Shown here: positions 24,175-45,587 of the stretch, in pieces
Position numbering within the stretch: the stretch's first letter is position 1
Layout of the letters: every line of letters starts with the position of its first letter
From: Acetobacteraceae bacterium
GTDB lineage: Bacteria; Pseudomonadota; Alphaproteobacteria; Acetobacterales; Acetobacteraceae
NCBI GenBank assembly: GCA_019750465.1
Contig: JAIEOP010000117.1
Location: 1 to 45,814, forward strand
Length of the DNA stretch: 45,814 nt
Direction: 5' to 3'
Program-made: the position numbers and the translations under genes
Notes under the pieces: generated by a model
What the model saw: only the letters and a program-made list of their open reading frames with translations
Databases searched by the model: none
What the model was told of the DNA's origin: nothing

Positions 24175-24423
24175 TCAGTCCGCGATGGGCTCCAGCGCCA
24201 CGGCGGCCCGATCGAGGTCGCGCACGAGCGCTTCCAGCGCCGGGCGCAGGGCGACGGCCTCGGTGACCGGAAGCACCCCGACGGCGGCGCAGAGCCGCGC
24301 CGCCTCGCGGTCCAGCCCCGCGAAATCAACGACACGGCCCGACTGAATCAGGGCGGCGGCGAGCTGCAGGGTGCCCTGCATGGATTCGATGGCGGCCTGC
24401 ACGGCCTGTGCATGGGAGAACAT
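24175..24423 (-). CDS. Unknown small protein at head of the fliO-fliP unit
   Basis: An 82-residue, mostly helical protein starting 'MFSHAQAVQAAIESMQGTLQLAAALIQSGR', with acidic and alanine/leucine-rich helices after it. No signal peptide or membrane segment. It ends 44 bases before fliO on the same strand and its start is 87 bases from the divergent flgB, so it probably opens the fliO-fliP transcript. Size and helix pattern recall flagellar chaperones of the FliT/FlgN kind, but I see no diagnostic motif. No convincing ribosome binding site precedes the ATG. Function unknown. Confidence 0.55.
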   Translation of the reverse strand: MFSHAQAVQAAIESMQGTLQLAAALIQSGRVVDFAGLDREAARLCAAVGVLPVTEAVALRPALEALVRDLDRAAVALEPIAD

Positions 24424-24509
24424 GCGGCAAGAATGACCGGGTCTGGTTAAGCGCGCCTTGCCATCGCCGTTCACGGCTTCTTCGCGCATTTGCCGCATGG
24501 TCCGTCGCC

Positions 24510-40037: not shown

Positions 40038-40766
40038 TCAGAACGGCAGCACGATATCCAGGATCTGCTGCCCCAGGCGCGGCTGCTGCAGGTCGGACAA
40101 GGTGCCGCGGCCGCCATAGGCGATGCGCGCCTCCGCCAGCCGGTCGTGGCGGATGGTGTTGTCGCTGGCGATGTCCTGCGGCCGGATCACGCCCTGCACC
40201 GCCAGCTCGCGCAGCTCCGCATTCACCCGCACCTCCTGCTTGCCGGCAACCACCAGGTTGCCGGTCGGCAGCACCTGCGTGACGGTGGCGGCCAGGCGCA
40301 GCGTCACCGTCTCGTTGCGGCGCAGCGTGCCATCGCCGTCCGAGGTCTGGTTGCCATTGGTCTGCACCAGGCTGCTGACGTTCGCCGGCGGCGGGAACCA
40401 GCGCGTCTGCAGCCCGAAGAACTGCGGGATGCCCATGGTGTCGGTGCCGTCGCGCGCGCGCTGGGTGCGGTTCTGCAGCTGCGCCTGGTCCTGGATGGAG
40501 ACCAGGATGGTGATCAGGTCGCCGACCTGCGCGGCACGCTGGTCGCGCAGGAAGGTGCGGCTGCCCGGCCGCCACAGGCTGTTGGCGAGCGGCGGCGGGT
40601 CGAGCGGCGCCGGCGTCGGCATGCTCACCGGCCGCCAGGCCGGGTCGCGCGTGGGATCGGTCACCGGCGACATGTCGGGCGCGCGGCCGACGCGGGAGAG
40701 ACGCTCGAAGGTGCTGCACCCGGGCAGGGCCAGCAGCGCGGCCAGCAGGGCTGGAGCAGGGCGCAT
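40038..40766 (-). CDS. flgH: Flagellar L-ring protein FlgH
   Basis: A 242-residue outer-membrane lipoprotein that forms the flagellar L ring. The signal peptide ends in the lipobox 'ALPGC' with Cys17 as the lipidated residue. The mature protein has 'RTFLRDQRAAQVGDLITILVSIQDQAQLQNRTQRARD' and the C-terminal 'GVIRPQDIASDNTIRHDRLAEARIAYGGRGTLSDLQQPRLGQQILDIVLPF', diagnostic of FlgH. It is last in the flgF-flgG-flgA-flgH unit, 12 bases after flgA. The P-ring gene flgI is not present. Confidence 0.96.
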   Translation of the reverse strand: MRPAPALLAALLALPGCSTFERLSRVGRAPDMSPVTDPTRDPAWRPVSMPTPAPLDPPPLANSLWRPGSRTFLRDQRAAQVGDLITILVSIQDQAQLQNRTQRARDGTDTMGIPQFFGLQTRWFPPPANVSSLVQTNGNQTSDGDGTLRRNETVTLRLAATVTQVLPTGNLVVAGKQEVRVNAELRELAVQGVIRPQDIASDNTIRHDRLAEARIAYGGRGTLSDLQQPRLGQQILDIVLPF

Positions 40767-40778
40767 GAGCGATCTCCG

Positions 40779-41729
40779 TTACCGACGTGCCGCGACCGCG
40801 ATCGGCGCCGTGCCGGCGCCCACGCGCACCCGCCCGGGCGCGACCACCACGCCCTCGACCACGGACTGGCTCATGAGGTTGACCACGCGCACCGTCGCCC
40901 CGCGCGGCGCCGCCTCCAGCGCGCGGCCCCCCGCGGTGAGCTGCATCCCCGGCGCGTCCAGCACGAGGGTCACCAGCGCGTTGCGCTCCACCAGCGCCGG
41001 CGGCGTGACGTCGGAAAGCTGGATGGGCTGTTCGGCGGTGATGGGCCGGCGCAGCTGCTTGCCGACGAGCTGCGCCGGCGTCTCGGCCAGCGCGCCCCGG
41101 GCCAGCTCGGCGCGCAACCGGATGGGGCGCACATCGGCCGGCCCGATGATCTCGCCGAGCGCGAGCCGGCGCACCGCGACCACCGCCGGCACCGTGGCGA
41201 CGGCGCGACCGGCGACGCGCTGCCGCGTCATCGGCATCCCCTCGGCCACGATCACAAGCGTGGCGGCGAAGCGCAGGGTCACGGCGTCGAAGCTGGCCCC
41301 CTCCGCCGCCACGGAAATGGCAGCGCCGGGCGGCACCATCGGCGGGATCAGCCCGCCCAGCTCCAGCGCCGCCTCGCCATCCAGGCCGAGCGGCACCAGC
41401 TCGGCGCGCAGCGCGGCTTCGATATCGGGGCGGGGCAGCGGCCGTCCTGGCCGTTCCACCACCGCCCGCTCGCGCACCGTCATCGGGCGCCAGGCGATGC
41501 CATGCGCGCGGGCAAGCGCGGCGAGCTGATCCACCTCCAGCACCGTGCGCCGTCCCGGCCCCGGTGCCGCGCCGACCGGGCGGGCCGCGCGGGCGGTATC
41601 GAGCCCCTCGAAGATCTCGCCGAGGCGCAGCACCGGCTCCTCGACGACGGCATGCGGGCGCAGCGTGACGAAATCCTGCGCCGCGGCGGGCGTGGCGAGC
41701 AGCAGCAGGGCGAGGAACGCGCGCCGCAT
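40779..41729 (-). CDS. flgA: Flagellar P-ring assembly chaperone FlgA
   Basis: A 316-residue periplasmic protein. Signal peptide 'AFLALLLLATPAAAQ' (about 3-18), then a longer-than-usual N-terminal region. The C-terminal SAF domain is 'VRRLALGEIIGPADVRPIRLR...LVGKQLRRPITAEQPIQLSDV', ending with 'VRVVNLMSQSVVEGVVVAPGRVRV'. FlgA escorts FlgI during P-ring assembly. One base separates its start from the flgG stop. Confidence 0.92.
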   Translation of the reverse strand: MRRAFLALLLLATPAAAQDFVTLRPHAVVEEPVLRLGEIFEGLDTARAARPVGAAPGPGRRTVLEVDQLAALARAHGIAWRPMTVRERAVVERPGRPLPRPDIEAALRAELVPLGLDGEAALELGGLIPPMVPPGAAISVAAEGASFDAVTLRFAATLVIVAEGMPMTRQRVAGRAVATVPAVVAVRRLALGEIIGPADVRPIRLRAELARGALAETPAQLVGKQLRRPITAEQPIQLSDVTPPALVERNALVTLVLDAPGMQLTAGGRALEAAPRGATVRVVNLMSQSVVEGVVVAPGRVRVGAGTAPIAVAARR

Positions 41730-41730
41730 C

Positions 41731-42516
41731 TCAGCGCATCCGCGACAGGGTGGAGAGCATCTCGTCGCTCGCGGTGATGACCTTGCTGTTCATCTCATAG
41801 GCGCGCTGCGCGGTGATCAGCCGCGTGATCTCCTGGACGACGTTGACATTGGAGGTCTCCACGAAGCCCTGCAGCACCTGGCCATGCCCGGGCTGGCCCG
41901 GGGCGGCAAGCTGCGCCTGGCCGGAGGCAGGCGTCGCCATCAGCATGTTGTCGCCGATCGCCTCCAGCCCGCCCTCGTTGGCGAAGATCGCGGTCTGGAT
42001 CTGGCCCACGTTCTGCGGCGCCACCTGGCCATCGAGCTTGGCGAGCACCTCCCCGGCGGCATTGATGGTGACGTCGCGCGCGGCAGCCGGGATGGTGATT
42101 CCGGGCATCACCATGAAGCCCTCCGCGGTGACGATCTGGCCCTCGGGCGAGAGGCCGAAGGTGCCGTCGCGCGTGTAGGCGGTCTCGCCGGAGGGCAGCT
42201 GCACCTGGAAGTAGCCGTTGCCGCGCACGGCGAGGTCGAAGCGGTTCTCGGTCTGCTGCAGGTTGCCCTGTTCCGAGATGCGGTACACGGCCGCGGTCTT
42301 CACGCCGAGGCCGACCTGCGCGCCGGCGGGCAGGATCGAGCCGTTGTCCGAGCTCTGGCTGCCGACACGGCGCAGGTTCTGGTAGATCAGGTCCTGGAAT
42401 TCGGCGCGCCGGCGCTTGTAGCCGGTGGTGCTCATGTTGGCGATGTTGTTGGAGATGACCTCGACATTGGTCTGCTGGGCCAGCATCCCCGTGCCGGCAA
42501 CCTGGAGCGAGCGCAT
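41731..42516 (-). CDS. flgG: Flagellar distal rod protein FlgG
   Basis: A 261-residue distal rod subunit. The N-terminal motif 'QTNVEVISNNIANMSTTGYKRRRAEFQDLIYQ' includes the FlgG-type insertion relative to other rod proteins. The C-terminus is 'GFVETSNVNVVQEITRLITAQRAYEMNSKVITASDEMLSTL'. Both helices that form the axial coiled-coil are present. GGGAAAGG lies ahead of the ATG at 42516. It is 23 bases downstream of flgF. Confidence 0.97.
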   Translation of the reverse strand: MRSLQVAGTGMLAQQTNVEVISNNIANMSTTGYKRRRAEFQDLIYQNLRRVGSQSSDNGSILPAGAQVGLGVKTAAVYRISEQGNLQQTENRFDLAVRGNGYFQVQLPSGETAYTRDGTFGLSPEGQIVTAEGFMVMPGITIPAAARDVTINAAGEVLAKLDGQVAPQNVGQIQTAIFANEGGLEAIGDNMLMATPASGQAQLAAPGQPGHGQVLQGFVETSNVNVVQEITRLITAQRAYEMNSKVITASDEMLSTLSRMR

Positions 42517-42539
42517 GGCGTGCCTTTCCCTGTCCGGTG

Positions 42540-43277
42540 TCAGCGGCGGCGCAGGATGCGGTCGACGGCGCCCTGCAGCCGCTCGCCCTCGCGCTCCGCG
42601 AATTGCGTGGCGAACTGGAACTCGCGCAGCTCCGCGGTCAGCCGCGTCATCTCGAGCACGGCGCTGACGTTGCTGCCCTCGACGGCGCCCTGGACCAGGT
42701 TGGGCCGCTCCACGGGCTCGGGCGGATCGTCGGCGGCGTAGAGCCGCCCACCCTGCGGCTTCAGCGCCTGCTCGTTCTCGAAGCGGACCACGCGCAGGCG
42801 CCCGACCACGCCGTTCTCGCTGCGCACGGTGCCATCGCCCTGGATCTCGATGCGGGTGTCGTTCGCCGCGAAGCCGATCGGCGTGCCGGCGGCGCCGAGC
42901 ACCGGGTAGCCTTCGGCATCGATCAGGCGGCGCTGTGCATCCAGCGCGAAGCGGCCGGCCCGGGTGAAGCGCTCGCCCTCCGGCGTCTCCACCGCGAAGT
43001 AGCCCTCGCCGCGGATGGCAACGTCGAGCGGATTGCCGGTGACGCCGATCGGCCCCGCCGCGGTGTCGCGCCAGGTGGCGCGATCGAGGGCATAGGCCAC
43101 CGGGCGGCCGCCCGAGGGGCCGCCGACATCCCGCTGCTGCTCCACCGCCGCGGCGAAGATCGGCCGCGCCGCGCGGAAGCCCGGCGTATCCGCATTGGCC
43201 ATGTTGTGCGCCAGCACCTCGGTCGCGCGGAGCTGCGCGCCGAGGCGGGAGAGGATGATGTATCCGGGCGTGTCCAT
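42540..43277 (-). CDS. flgF: Flagellar basal-body rod protein FlgF
   Basis: A 245-residue rod subunit. N-terminus 'LSRLGAQLRATEVLAHNMANADTPGFRAARPIF' and C-terminus 'GAVEGSNVSAVLEMTRLTAELREFQFATQFAEREGERL' are those of FlgF. It is first in the flgF-flgG-flgA-flgH unit, with a strong sigma-54 promoter sequence about 67 bases before its start (43344-43358, minus strand). Confidence 0.95.
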   Translation of the reverse strand: MDTPGYIILSRLGAQLRATEVLAHNMANADTPGFRAARPIFAAAVEQQRDVGGPSGGRPVAYALDRATWRDTAAGPIGVTGNPLDVAIRGEGYFAVETPEGERFTRAGRFALDAQRRLIDAEGYPVLGAAGTPIGFAANDTRIEIQGDGTVRSENGVVGRLRVVRFENEQALKPQGGRLYAADDPPEPVERPNLVQGAVEGSNVSAVLEMTRLTAELREFQFATQFAEREGERLQGAVDRILRRR

Positions 43278-43343
43278 CGGCGTCGGCTCCGGTCGGCGCC
43301 CGGGCGGGCGCGGGTTCGGCGAGGCAGTCTCGGTCGGCGATGG

Positions 43344-43358
43344 GCAAGCCGCGTGCCA
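43344..43358 (-). promoter_or_regulatory. Sigma-54 (RpoN) promoter for flgFGAH
   Basis: Read on the minus strand this is TGGCACG-CGGC-TTGC, an exact match to the -24/-12 consensus TGGCACG-N4-TTGC with correct spacing. It lies 67 bases before the flgF start. The element is nearly palindromic, so the plus strand also shows GG-N10-GC with a weaker match (GGGCAAG-CCGC-GTGC at 43342-43356) facing fliL. Sigma-54 control of basal-body genes with an FlbD/FlgR-type activator is known in other bacteria. Here it is inferred from sequence alone. Confidence 0.75.
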
Positions 43359-43509
43359 GCCGCGCCGGGCCGTTTCGCGCCGCTTCCAGACGCGGGAAGG
43401 GCTGCCGGACCTGCCGCCTAGGCAGGAACTGCCGGCGCGACCCTGCCGGGCAAGGCTTCGTTAAGGCGCACCCGGCATAACGGCGTGACCAGAACGGCCA
43501 GGATGGGCG

Positions 43510-44049
43510 ATGGCAACGGCAGCAGCACAGCAGGTGGCGGGATCGGACACCGAGACAGGCACGGCCGCGCCGAAGCGTGGGCGGAAGAAGCTCCTGGTCC
43601 TGATCGCGGTACCGCTGCTGCTTGCAGCGATCGGCGGCGGCCTCTGGGCTTCGGGGCTGCTGCGGGGAGTGCTCGGCGGCTCCCCTCCCCCGGCCGAGGC
43701 AACGGAGGGCCAGGCCGCCGCGCCGGCGCCCGCACCCCGTGCGCCGCCGGTGTTTCTCGACATGCCCGACATCATCGCCAACCTGAACATCGGCAACCGG
43801 CGGACCGCCTTCATCAAGCTGCGCAGCAAGCTCGAACTCGCGCGGGCCGAGGACCGGCAGGCGGTCGAGGCAGCGATGCCGCGGCTGCTCGACCTGTTCA
43901 CCACCTACCTGCGTGAAATACGTCCGGAGGAGCTGCGCGGCAGCGCCGGCACCTTCCGGCTGCGGGAGGAGCTGCTGAACCGTGCGAACATCGCCGTCGC
44001 CCCAGCGCGCGTGACAGACGTGCTCTTCCTGGAGATCCTCCAGCAATGA
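43510..44049 (+). CDS. fliL: Flagellar basal body-associated protein FliL
   Basis: A 179-residue single-span inner-membrane protein that supports stator function. After a basic start ('KRGRKK') a membrane helix (about 25-46) is followed by an Ala/Pro linker. The periplasmic FliL domain has 'FLDMPDIIANLNIGNRRTAFIKLRSKLELAR' and ends 'LREELLNRANIAVAPARVTDVLFLEILQQ'. AGGA lies about seven bases before the ATG at 43510. Its stop overlaps the fliM start (ATGA). It is divergent from flgF. Confidence 0.94.
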   Translation: MATAAAQQVAGSDTETGTAAPKRGRKKLLVLIAVPLLLAAIGGGLWASGLLRGVLGGSPPPAEATEGQAAAPAPAPRAPPVFLDMPDIIANLNIGNRRTAFIKLRSKLELARAEDRQAVEAAMPRLLDLFTTYLREIRPEELRGSAGTFRLREELLNRANIAVAPARVTDVLFLEILQQ

Positions 44050-45125
44050 GCGGCCAGTCGGAGGAGGACATGGCCGCCGCCTGGGCGGACGCCATGGACA
44101 AGGAAAACGACGCGACGCCAGGAGCCGATGCGGCGGCCGCCGCGAAGGACGCTGCACCGGACGCGACCCGGGTGCTGAACCAGGCCGAAATCGACAGCCT
44201 GCTCGGCTTCGGCGGCGGCGAGGCCGCGGAGGCGCAGCAGAGCGGCATCGAGCGCATCGTGAGTGCGGGTCTCATCTCCTATGAGCGCCTGCCGATGCTG
44301 GAGATCGTCTTCGACCGGCTGGTGCGCATCACCTCGACATCGCTGCGCAACTTCACCTCCGACAATGTCGAGGTCTCGATCGACGGCATCCTCTCGCTGC
44401 GCTTCGGCGACTACCTGAACTCCGTGCCGCTGCCGGCCATGCTGGCGGTGTTCAAGGTGGAGGAATGGGACAATTTCGGCTTGCTCGTGGTGGACAGCCC
44501 GCTGATCTACTCGGTGGTCGATGTCCTGCTCGGCGGGCGGCGCGGCACCGCCGCCATGCGCATCGAAGGCCGGCCCTACACCACCATCGAACGCACCCTG
44601 GTCGAGCGGCTGATCACCGTGCTGCTGGCCGATCTCTCCACCGCCTTCGCGCCGCTCTGCGATGTCAACTACCGGTTCGAGCGGCTGGAGGTGAATCCAC
44701 GCTTCGCCGCCATCTCGCGCCTTTCCAACGCCTGCGTCCTGGTCCGCCTGCGCATCGACATGGAGGATCGCGGCGGCCGCGTCGAGCTGCTGCTGCCCTA
44801 CGCTACCCTGGAGCCGGTGCGCGAGCTGCTGCTGCAGCAGTTCATGGGCGAGAAGTTCGGCCGGGACTCGATCTGGGAAACCCACCTCGCGGAGCAGCTC
44901 CGCCATACCGAGCTCTCGCTCGACGTGGTGCTGGACGAGCAGACCATGCCGCTGTCCACGGTGACGGCGCTGCGCAGGGGCGACTGCATCACCCTCGGCG
45001 CCGGGCCGGGTTCGCCGGTGCGGCTGCGCTGCGGCGATATTCCCCTGTTCGATGCCGAGCTGGGGCGCCGCGAGAACCGCCTGGCGGTGCGCATCCTGCG
45101 CGAGCTGACGGCGCAGCAGGGCTGA
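44046..45125 (+). CDS. fliM: Flagellar motor switch protein FliM
   Basis: A 359-residue C-ring protein. An acidic, alanine-rich N-terminus precedes 'LNQAEIDSLLGF', then the CheC-like middle domain ('YERLPMLEIVFDRLVRITSTSLRNFTSDNVEVSIDGI', 'YSVVDVLLGGRRG') and the C-terminal SpoA domain ('LSLDVVLDEQTMPLSTVTALRRGDCITLG'). The usual short CheY-binding peptide at the extreme N-terminus is not obvious. It follows fliL with a four-base overlap. Confidence 0.96.
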   Translation: MSGQSEEDMAAAWADAMDKENDATPGADAAAAAKDAAPDATRVLNQAEIDSLLGFGGGEAAEAQQSGIERIVSAGLISYERLPMLEIVFDRLVRITSTSLRNFTSDNVEVSIDGILSLRFGDYLNSVPLPAMLAVFKVEEWDNFGLLVVDSPLIYSVVDVLLGGRRGTAAMRIEGRPYTTIERTLVERLITVLLADLSTAFAPLCDVNYRFERLEVNPRFAAISRLSNACVLVRLRIDMEDRGGRVELLLPYATLEPVRELLLQQFMGEKFGRDSIWETHLAEQLRHTELSLDVVLDEQTMPLSTVTALRRGDCITLGAGPGSPVRLRCGDIPLFDAELGRRENRLAVRILRELTAQQG

Positions 45126-45137
45126 GGGAGGGTCGGC

Positions 45138-45587
45138 ATGAGCGCCCTGGAATGGGTTCTGCAGCTCGTGGTGGTGGCGCTGCTCGCGGCCGCGCTGCCT
45201 TTTGCGCTTCGGCTGGAGCGGGCGCTTTCGGCGCTGCGGCGCGATCGTGCGGCGCTGGATGGCTCGGCCGCCGGGCTGGCCGAGGCGACGCGCCTGGCCG
45301 AGGCCGCCTCGCTCCGGCTGCGCGCCTCCGCCGAGGGTGCGGGGCGGCAGGTGGCGGAGAAGCTCGCCGCCGCGGAGCCGCTGCGCGACGACCTGCAATA
45401 CCTGGTGGAGCGGGCCGAGGCGATTGCGGACCGGCTGGACGGTCTCGTGCGGGTCGCGCGCACGGCGTCGCCGCGAGCCGATGCGGCCGTGCCGGCCGCG
45501 GCGCCGGCGCCCGGTCGCAGCCGTGCCGAACGTGACCTGATGCGGGCGCTGCTGCACGGTGGGCAGACGCCGAACGGAGCCGCGTGA
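45138..45587 (+). CDS. DUF6468 flagellar-locus membrane protein
   Basis: A 149-residue protein with one N-terminal membrane helix ('WVLQLVVVALLAAALPFALRLERAL'). A helical, alanine/leucine-rich region with coiled-coil character follows, then a Pro/Ala tail ending 'RDLMRALLHGG'. Length, layout and position between fliM and motE match the DUF6468 proteins of alphaproteobacterial flagellar operons. The function is not established. GGGAGGGT precedes the ATG, and the next start overlaps its stop. Confidence 0.75.
   Translation: MSALEWVLQLVVVALLAAALPFALRLERALSALRRDRAALDGSAAGLAEATRLAEAASLRLRASAEGAGRQVAEKLAAAEPLRDDLQYLVERAEAIADRLDGLVRVARTASPRADAAVPAAAPAPGRSRAERDLMRALLHGGQTPNGAA

Follow-up and report, generated by a model that had tools for sequence, protein, structure and literature searches.

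Does a single sigma-54 site control both of the flagellar operons that diverge from the gap between flgF and fliL, or does each operon have a promoter of its own? The question arose from contig JAIEOP010000117.1 of an Acetobacteraceae bacterium (assembly GCA_019750465.1), positions 1 to 45,814, hereafter the window. Here flgF (minus strand) and fliL (plus strand), each matching its own Pfam family, are divergent, as we take them to be in Caulobacter also. On the minus strand, flgF (42540..43277, ATG at 43277; Pfam rod and FlgE/F/G domains) is followed by flgG (41731..42537; Pfam FlgE/F/G domains, named by gene order), flgA (40779..41729; Pfam ChapFlgA) and flgH (40038..40766; Pfam FlgH, and above the cut-off of the NCBIfam FlgH model). 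On the plus strand, fliL (43510..44049; Pfam FliL) is followed by fliM (44046..45125; Pfam FliM). A DUF6468 protein, a flagellar-neighbourhood protein, is encoded directly after fliM (45138-45587, plus strand).

The sigma-54 site upstream of flgF

An exact sigma-54 consensus, TGGCACG-N4-TTGC (TGGCACGCGGCTTGC), in which ten bases separate the GG and GC cores, was confirmed on the minus strand at 43344-43358, two bases away from the start at 43342 given in the initial annotation. The site had also been placed 67 bases before flgF; it does lie upstream of that gene, with a counted spacer to the ATG at 43277 of 66 nt. It was the sole match without mismatch in the window. When up to two mismatches were allowed, 14 matches were found in the window compared with 23 expected by chance, and therefore only the exact site is notable.

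Conservation was assessed in related loci. When 150 genomes of the window's family were searched for FlgF, 122 gave a match, of which the best 30 loci were used, and a FliM search of named contigs contributed the best 80 of 586. The best titles of the latter search were Belnapia, Siccirubricoccus, Paeniroseomonas and other Acetobacteraceae, with some broader or apparently mislabelled, and we infer from these record titles that the FliM-derived loci belong to the Acetobacteraceae. Two of the 110 loci (L119 and L129) had no flgF and were left out, and 11 of the 108 remaining flgF upstream regions were removed as duplicates, giving 97 distinct regions with the window included. Two further sets of 30 loci each were drawn from the 47 and 51 genomes, respectively, that gave a match. 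A site scoring at least 10/11, with both cores and on the flgF strand, was found in 86 of the 97 distinct regions (68 exact), compared with 65 of 9700 Markov-shuffled regions, the 97 being related sequences whose counts are not independent trials. The distance of the site to flgF had a median of 46 nt (range 12-113), and 11 of the 97 regions had no site at this threshold. The assignment of a sigma-54 promoter to flgF was thereby supported. Exact matches can be idle, as two of the eleven in the genome (L006 and L009) have no convincing gene behind them, and the match at flgF might likewise be a chance sequence without function. However, given this degree of conservation over the shuffled regions, the phased palindrome that accompanies the site and the recurrence of the same design at flgI (see below), such an explanation is barely conceivable.

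A C followed by a purine was observed 12-13 nt past the TTGC in 61 of the 86 regions, compared with between 5 and 23 of 86 at each of 24 further offsets. From this conserved signature, flgF transcription is predicted to start at the G at 43331, directly after the C at 43332 (minus strand), with a predicted leader of 54 nt. Judged by its conservation, 43344-43358 is a genuine, strongly conserved sigma-54 promoter, probably of class III, ahead of genes for the flagellar rod and rings.

As the initial annotation had called for, the whole genome was scanned for the consensus and for an FlbD-type activator gene. The 6.04 Mb assembly (522 contigs) held 11 exact consensus matches and none of the reversed-pattern control, the genes behind them being flgF, flgI, an SLT-domain gene and three genes for PEP-CTERM-like proteins, with five places that have no flagellar link, L006 and L009 among them. 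RpoN is encoded, with one Sigma54_DBD match in the genome (E 1.3e-68), and the sigma-54 activator domain gave nine matches, four of them strong. Three of these four, namely NtrC, NtrX and a PEP-CTERM response regulator, exceeded their NCBIfam cut-offs. The remaining one was the FlbD-like protein sought, FlbD being its best NCBIfam model (643 bits, under the cut-off of 750). The three PEP-CTERM-like proteins lie behind exact sites at L001, L002 and L004 (contigs C267, C306 and C361); those at L002 and L004 scored above the PEP-CTERM model cut-off, and that at L001 was recognised by eye and by sub-cut-off matches only. Taken together with the PEP-CTERM response regulator, these genes suggest that sigma-54 probably controls a second regulon here, one of surface proteins sorted by exosortase.

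The fliL side of the gap and the flgB run

The near-palindromic form of the flgF site had led to the proposal that a weaker GG-N10-GC element on the plus strand faces fliL, with one site driving both flgF and fliL. Such a core does exist across the identical bases (GGGCAAGCCGCGTGC, 8/11). However, it requires only a C after the TTGC and is therefore not an independent feature. Directly after the TTGC, the 86 conserved sites have G 36 times, C 31 times, T 10 times and A 9 times, the mirror core being present in 31 of 86, and C makes up 38% of the downstream sequence. The mirror thus occurs at about the frequency given by base composition, and near-palindromy provides no evidence of shared use. 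Furthermore, a site of at least 10/11 on the fliL-facing strand was found in only 2 of the 97 regions, and a separate conserved element resembling a promoter lies ahead of fliL. A bidirectional sigma-54 site was consequently rejected on conservation and composition and is, in our estimation, very improbable; a sigma-54 site that is nearly palindromic is not to be taken for a bidirectional one.

The element ahead of fliL, GCAAGnCTTCnTTAA (= GCAAGGCTTCGTTAA; 43450..43464, plus strand), is, on the basis of its conservation in the 97 regions, a candidate for the element through which the fliL promoter is activated. At a score of at least 9/13 it was present in 86 of the 97, compared with 45 of 4850 shuffled regions and 5 of 97 on the opposite strand; at 11/13 or more, the counts were 71 of 97 and 0 of 4850, and the element was exact in 43 of 97. 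A candidate -10 of fliL, CATAAC (43476..43481, plus strand), lies 11 nt past the TTAA. The aligned -10 hexamers are sigma-70-like, 76% of them having A as the second base and 63% having T as the sixth, where the window has C. A CtrA box of the form TTAA-N7-TTAA was absent at fliL, 43450-43464 reading GCAA-N7-TTAA instead. The genome encodes a CtrA relative that is 62% identical to a Caulobacter CtrA query across 201 residues, the next best hit being at 36%. Degenerate CtrA boxes such as TTAT-N7-TCAA are described for Caulobacter in the available text of PMC4287350. As a guess, the fliL element is perhaps driven by CtrA, with the N7 spacing kept and GCAA replacing one TTAA.

With at most one mismatch, the element has two copies in the genome, at fliL and in C301. 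The second GCAAGnCTTCnTTAA copy (L143:2844-3341) stands before a 148-aa frame that is convergent with flbT and gave no Pfam or NCBIfam match. Phasing between the TTAA element and the sigma-54 site was weak (best period 12.2, R 0.5). From conservation of the element, the fliL-fliM genes appear to have a promoter separate from the sigma-54 site.

The absence of an equivalent site ahead of "the flgB or fliQ runs" had also been reported, with the suggestion that the flagellar clusters may be under different control. The two runs proved to be one, as the rod gene in the flgB position (ATG 24510), fliE, fliQ, fliR and flhB are on one strand, with fliP on the other. The absence of a site held ahead of flgB, where the best sigma-54 score in the 160 nt before ATG 24510 was 5/11. 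None of 27 flgB upstream regions reached 10/11, and one reached 9, which supports a different control of the flgB run. Stretches of TTAA or TTAC are common before flgB, without a settled consensus. In the window, a TTAA-N7-TTGC stretch before flgB (24447-24461) was considered as a conserved element of the fliL type and rejected, since no more than 2 of 30 fliP loci, one of them from this genome, carry an exact copy. An 82-aa frame (24175-24423, minus strand), located between flgB and fliP and divergent from flgB, gave no Pfam match; its ATG is about 24 nt from the TTAA-N7-TTGC stretch. According to the available text of PMC6180460, a single CtrA site serves both flgB and fliO in Caulobacter.

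The palindrome upstream of flgF and its candidate activator

When the stretches upstream of the 86 sites were searched de novo for dyads, a palindrome emerged, GGCA-N5-TGCC, which in the window (GGCAGGAACTGCC, 43421..43433) starts 75 nt before the TGG of the promoter. It was found within 170 nt upstream in 81 of the 86 regions, compared with 45 of 4300 shuffled regions. Distances between palindrome and promoter cluster near -34, -54 and -65, and no region has a distance between -36 and -50. For the phasing analysis, near relatives of identical spacing were collapsed at four levels, no tree being used. The resulting 50-80 regions gave an Rmax of 0.69-0.75 for periods of 10-11.5 bp, whereas the jittered control had a mean of about 0.2 and, at every one of the four levels, reached the observed value in 0 of 2000 trials. 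The 28 distinct positions taken by themselves showed weaker phasing, with R 0.42 for a period of 11 and R 0.29 for one of 10.5. The spacing of the palindrome, which varies naturally by single helical turns, constitutes a ready data set on activator placement. Conservation and helical phasing together suggest that the palindrome is a probable FlbD enhancer.

Only flgF and flgI, among the 11 exact genomic sites, have an exact palindrome within 170 nt, at -75 in both cases. In relatives, 25 of the 30 flgI regions used have the site and the same 25 have the palindrome, 2 of 25 placing it at -44 or -45; 4 of 600 shuffled flgI regions reached the site score. FliX is encoded divergent from flgI (Pfam FliX, E 9.6e-20). 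A pattern of palindrome, 18-79 nt and TGGC-N7-TTGC has three copies in the genome, at flgF, at flgI and in the gap beside flgE, with none in the control. In C301 (L143:8312-8437), two sigma-54 sites of 10/11 diverge from the palindrome, which is placed halfway between them (-55, -54); one site faces flgE and the other an open-ended frame that gave no Pfam match and is taken for fliK by position only. This arrangement would be a naturally occurring example of one enhancer serving two promoters.

The FlbD-like gene lies in the order fliN-flbD-flhA, followed by an SRP54-type GTPase gene, and its place after fliN and before flhA is presumably that of Caulobacter flbD. The co-occurrence of FlbD with the site was examined in 43 genomes, comprising all 11 without the site and 32 with it. 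A FlbD match of at least 450 bits was present in 9 of the 11 and in 27 of the 32, respectively; a joint loss of site and FlbD was rejected, there being no association, and these nine site-less genomes with a strong match indicate that the two are not tied. The five remaining site-bearing genomes had a partial FlbD match (G173, G176 and G177), a weaker one (G180) or one no better than the NtrC-like match (G183). Two strong FlbD matches each were found in G154, G157, G159 and G166 (the genomes of L114, L133, L136 and L086), which suggests two flagellar systems, and on this ground the site-less flgF region of G154, G157 and G159 may belong to a second system. The palindrome is retained in 4 of the 11 site-less flgF regions.

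Since FlbD presence does not follow site presence, and both NtrC and NtrX are encoded, it was also considered that the sigma-54 promoter is genuine and the palindrome serves a regulator other than FlbD, for example one of these two. However, the combination of palindrome and exact site is solely flagellar, the looser pattern adding only the gap beside flgE, and such a distribution suits FlbD better than a nitrogen regulator. A regulator other than FlbD is accordingly improbable, and FlbD is kept as the candidate activator in what follows.

Proposed control of the two operons and comparison with known systems

It is highly probable, in our view, that 43344-43358 drives flgF-flgG-flgA-flgH through RpoN and FlbD, and that fliL-fliM is an early operon with a sigma-70-type promoter of its own. 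In the proposed mechanism, 43344-43358 would serve as the -24/-12 promoter of the four genes, RpoN-RNA polymerase would be held there as a closed complex, and FlbD would act by binding at the palindrome with looping of the DNA. The promoter of fliL-fliM, on the opposite strand, would be activated through GCAAGnCTTCnTTAA, perhaps by CtrA. The start sites and timing of both operons are predicted ones, and predictions at the level of single bases are given for the flgF start site, the enhancer and the fliL promoter.

In Caulobacter, as described in the available text of PMC3930126 and PMC3096577, the early genes of the flagellum are driven by CtrA and the later ones are activated by FlbD, which acts as a repressor at the early fliF promoter. 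By this precedent, if the flgF and fliL operons are coupled, the palindrome between them, possibly shared, would be a better candidate than the sigma-54 site. A more tentative reading, possible but doubtful, makes the gap a two-way timing device, with an early fliL promoter dependent on GCAAGnCTTCnTTAA, a later sigma-54 promoter of flgF, and one phased FlbD palindrome turning flgF up and fliL down; GCAAGnCTTCnTTAA would then be a lineage-specific element resembling a CtrA box.

Among the literature matches listed, no title concerned a sigma-54/FlbD flagellar order in the Acetobacteraceae, to which the present reading would extend the Caulobacter-type order of flagellar assembly. In the available accounts, class III flagellar promoters of Caulobacter crescentus depend on RpoN, on FlbD at ftr elements and on FliX (PMC3096577, PMC3930126, PMC7064773), and require IHF (PMC3096577). 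Similarly, rod, ring and hook genes stand here behind sigma-54 promoters and FliX is present; the probable enhancer of the window has the form of a simple GGCA-N5-TGCC palindrome and is a candidate ftr counterpart. The Caulobacter RpoN motif at mapped start sites is given as GGCNC-N4-CTTGC in the available text of PMC4287350, and the flgF site contains GGCAC-N4-CTTGC, an exact fit.

A second comparison is offered by the fla2 system of Rhodobacter sphaeroides, for which the available text of PMC6180460 describes the divergent promoters fliL2-fliF2 and flgB2-fliI2, CtrA and TTAA-type sites. As in fla2, the flagellar promoters of the window are divergent, one faces fliL, and TTAA-type activator sites are present. 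Unlike fla2, where no RpoN is found according to that text, one promoter of the pair here is a sigma-54 promoter, and GCAA substitutes for one TTAA half in the fliL element.
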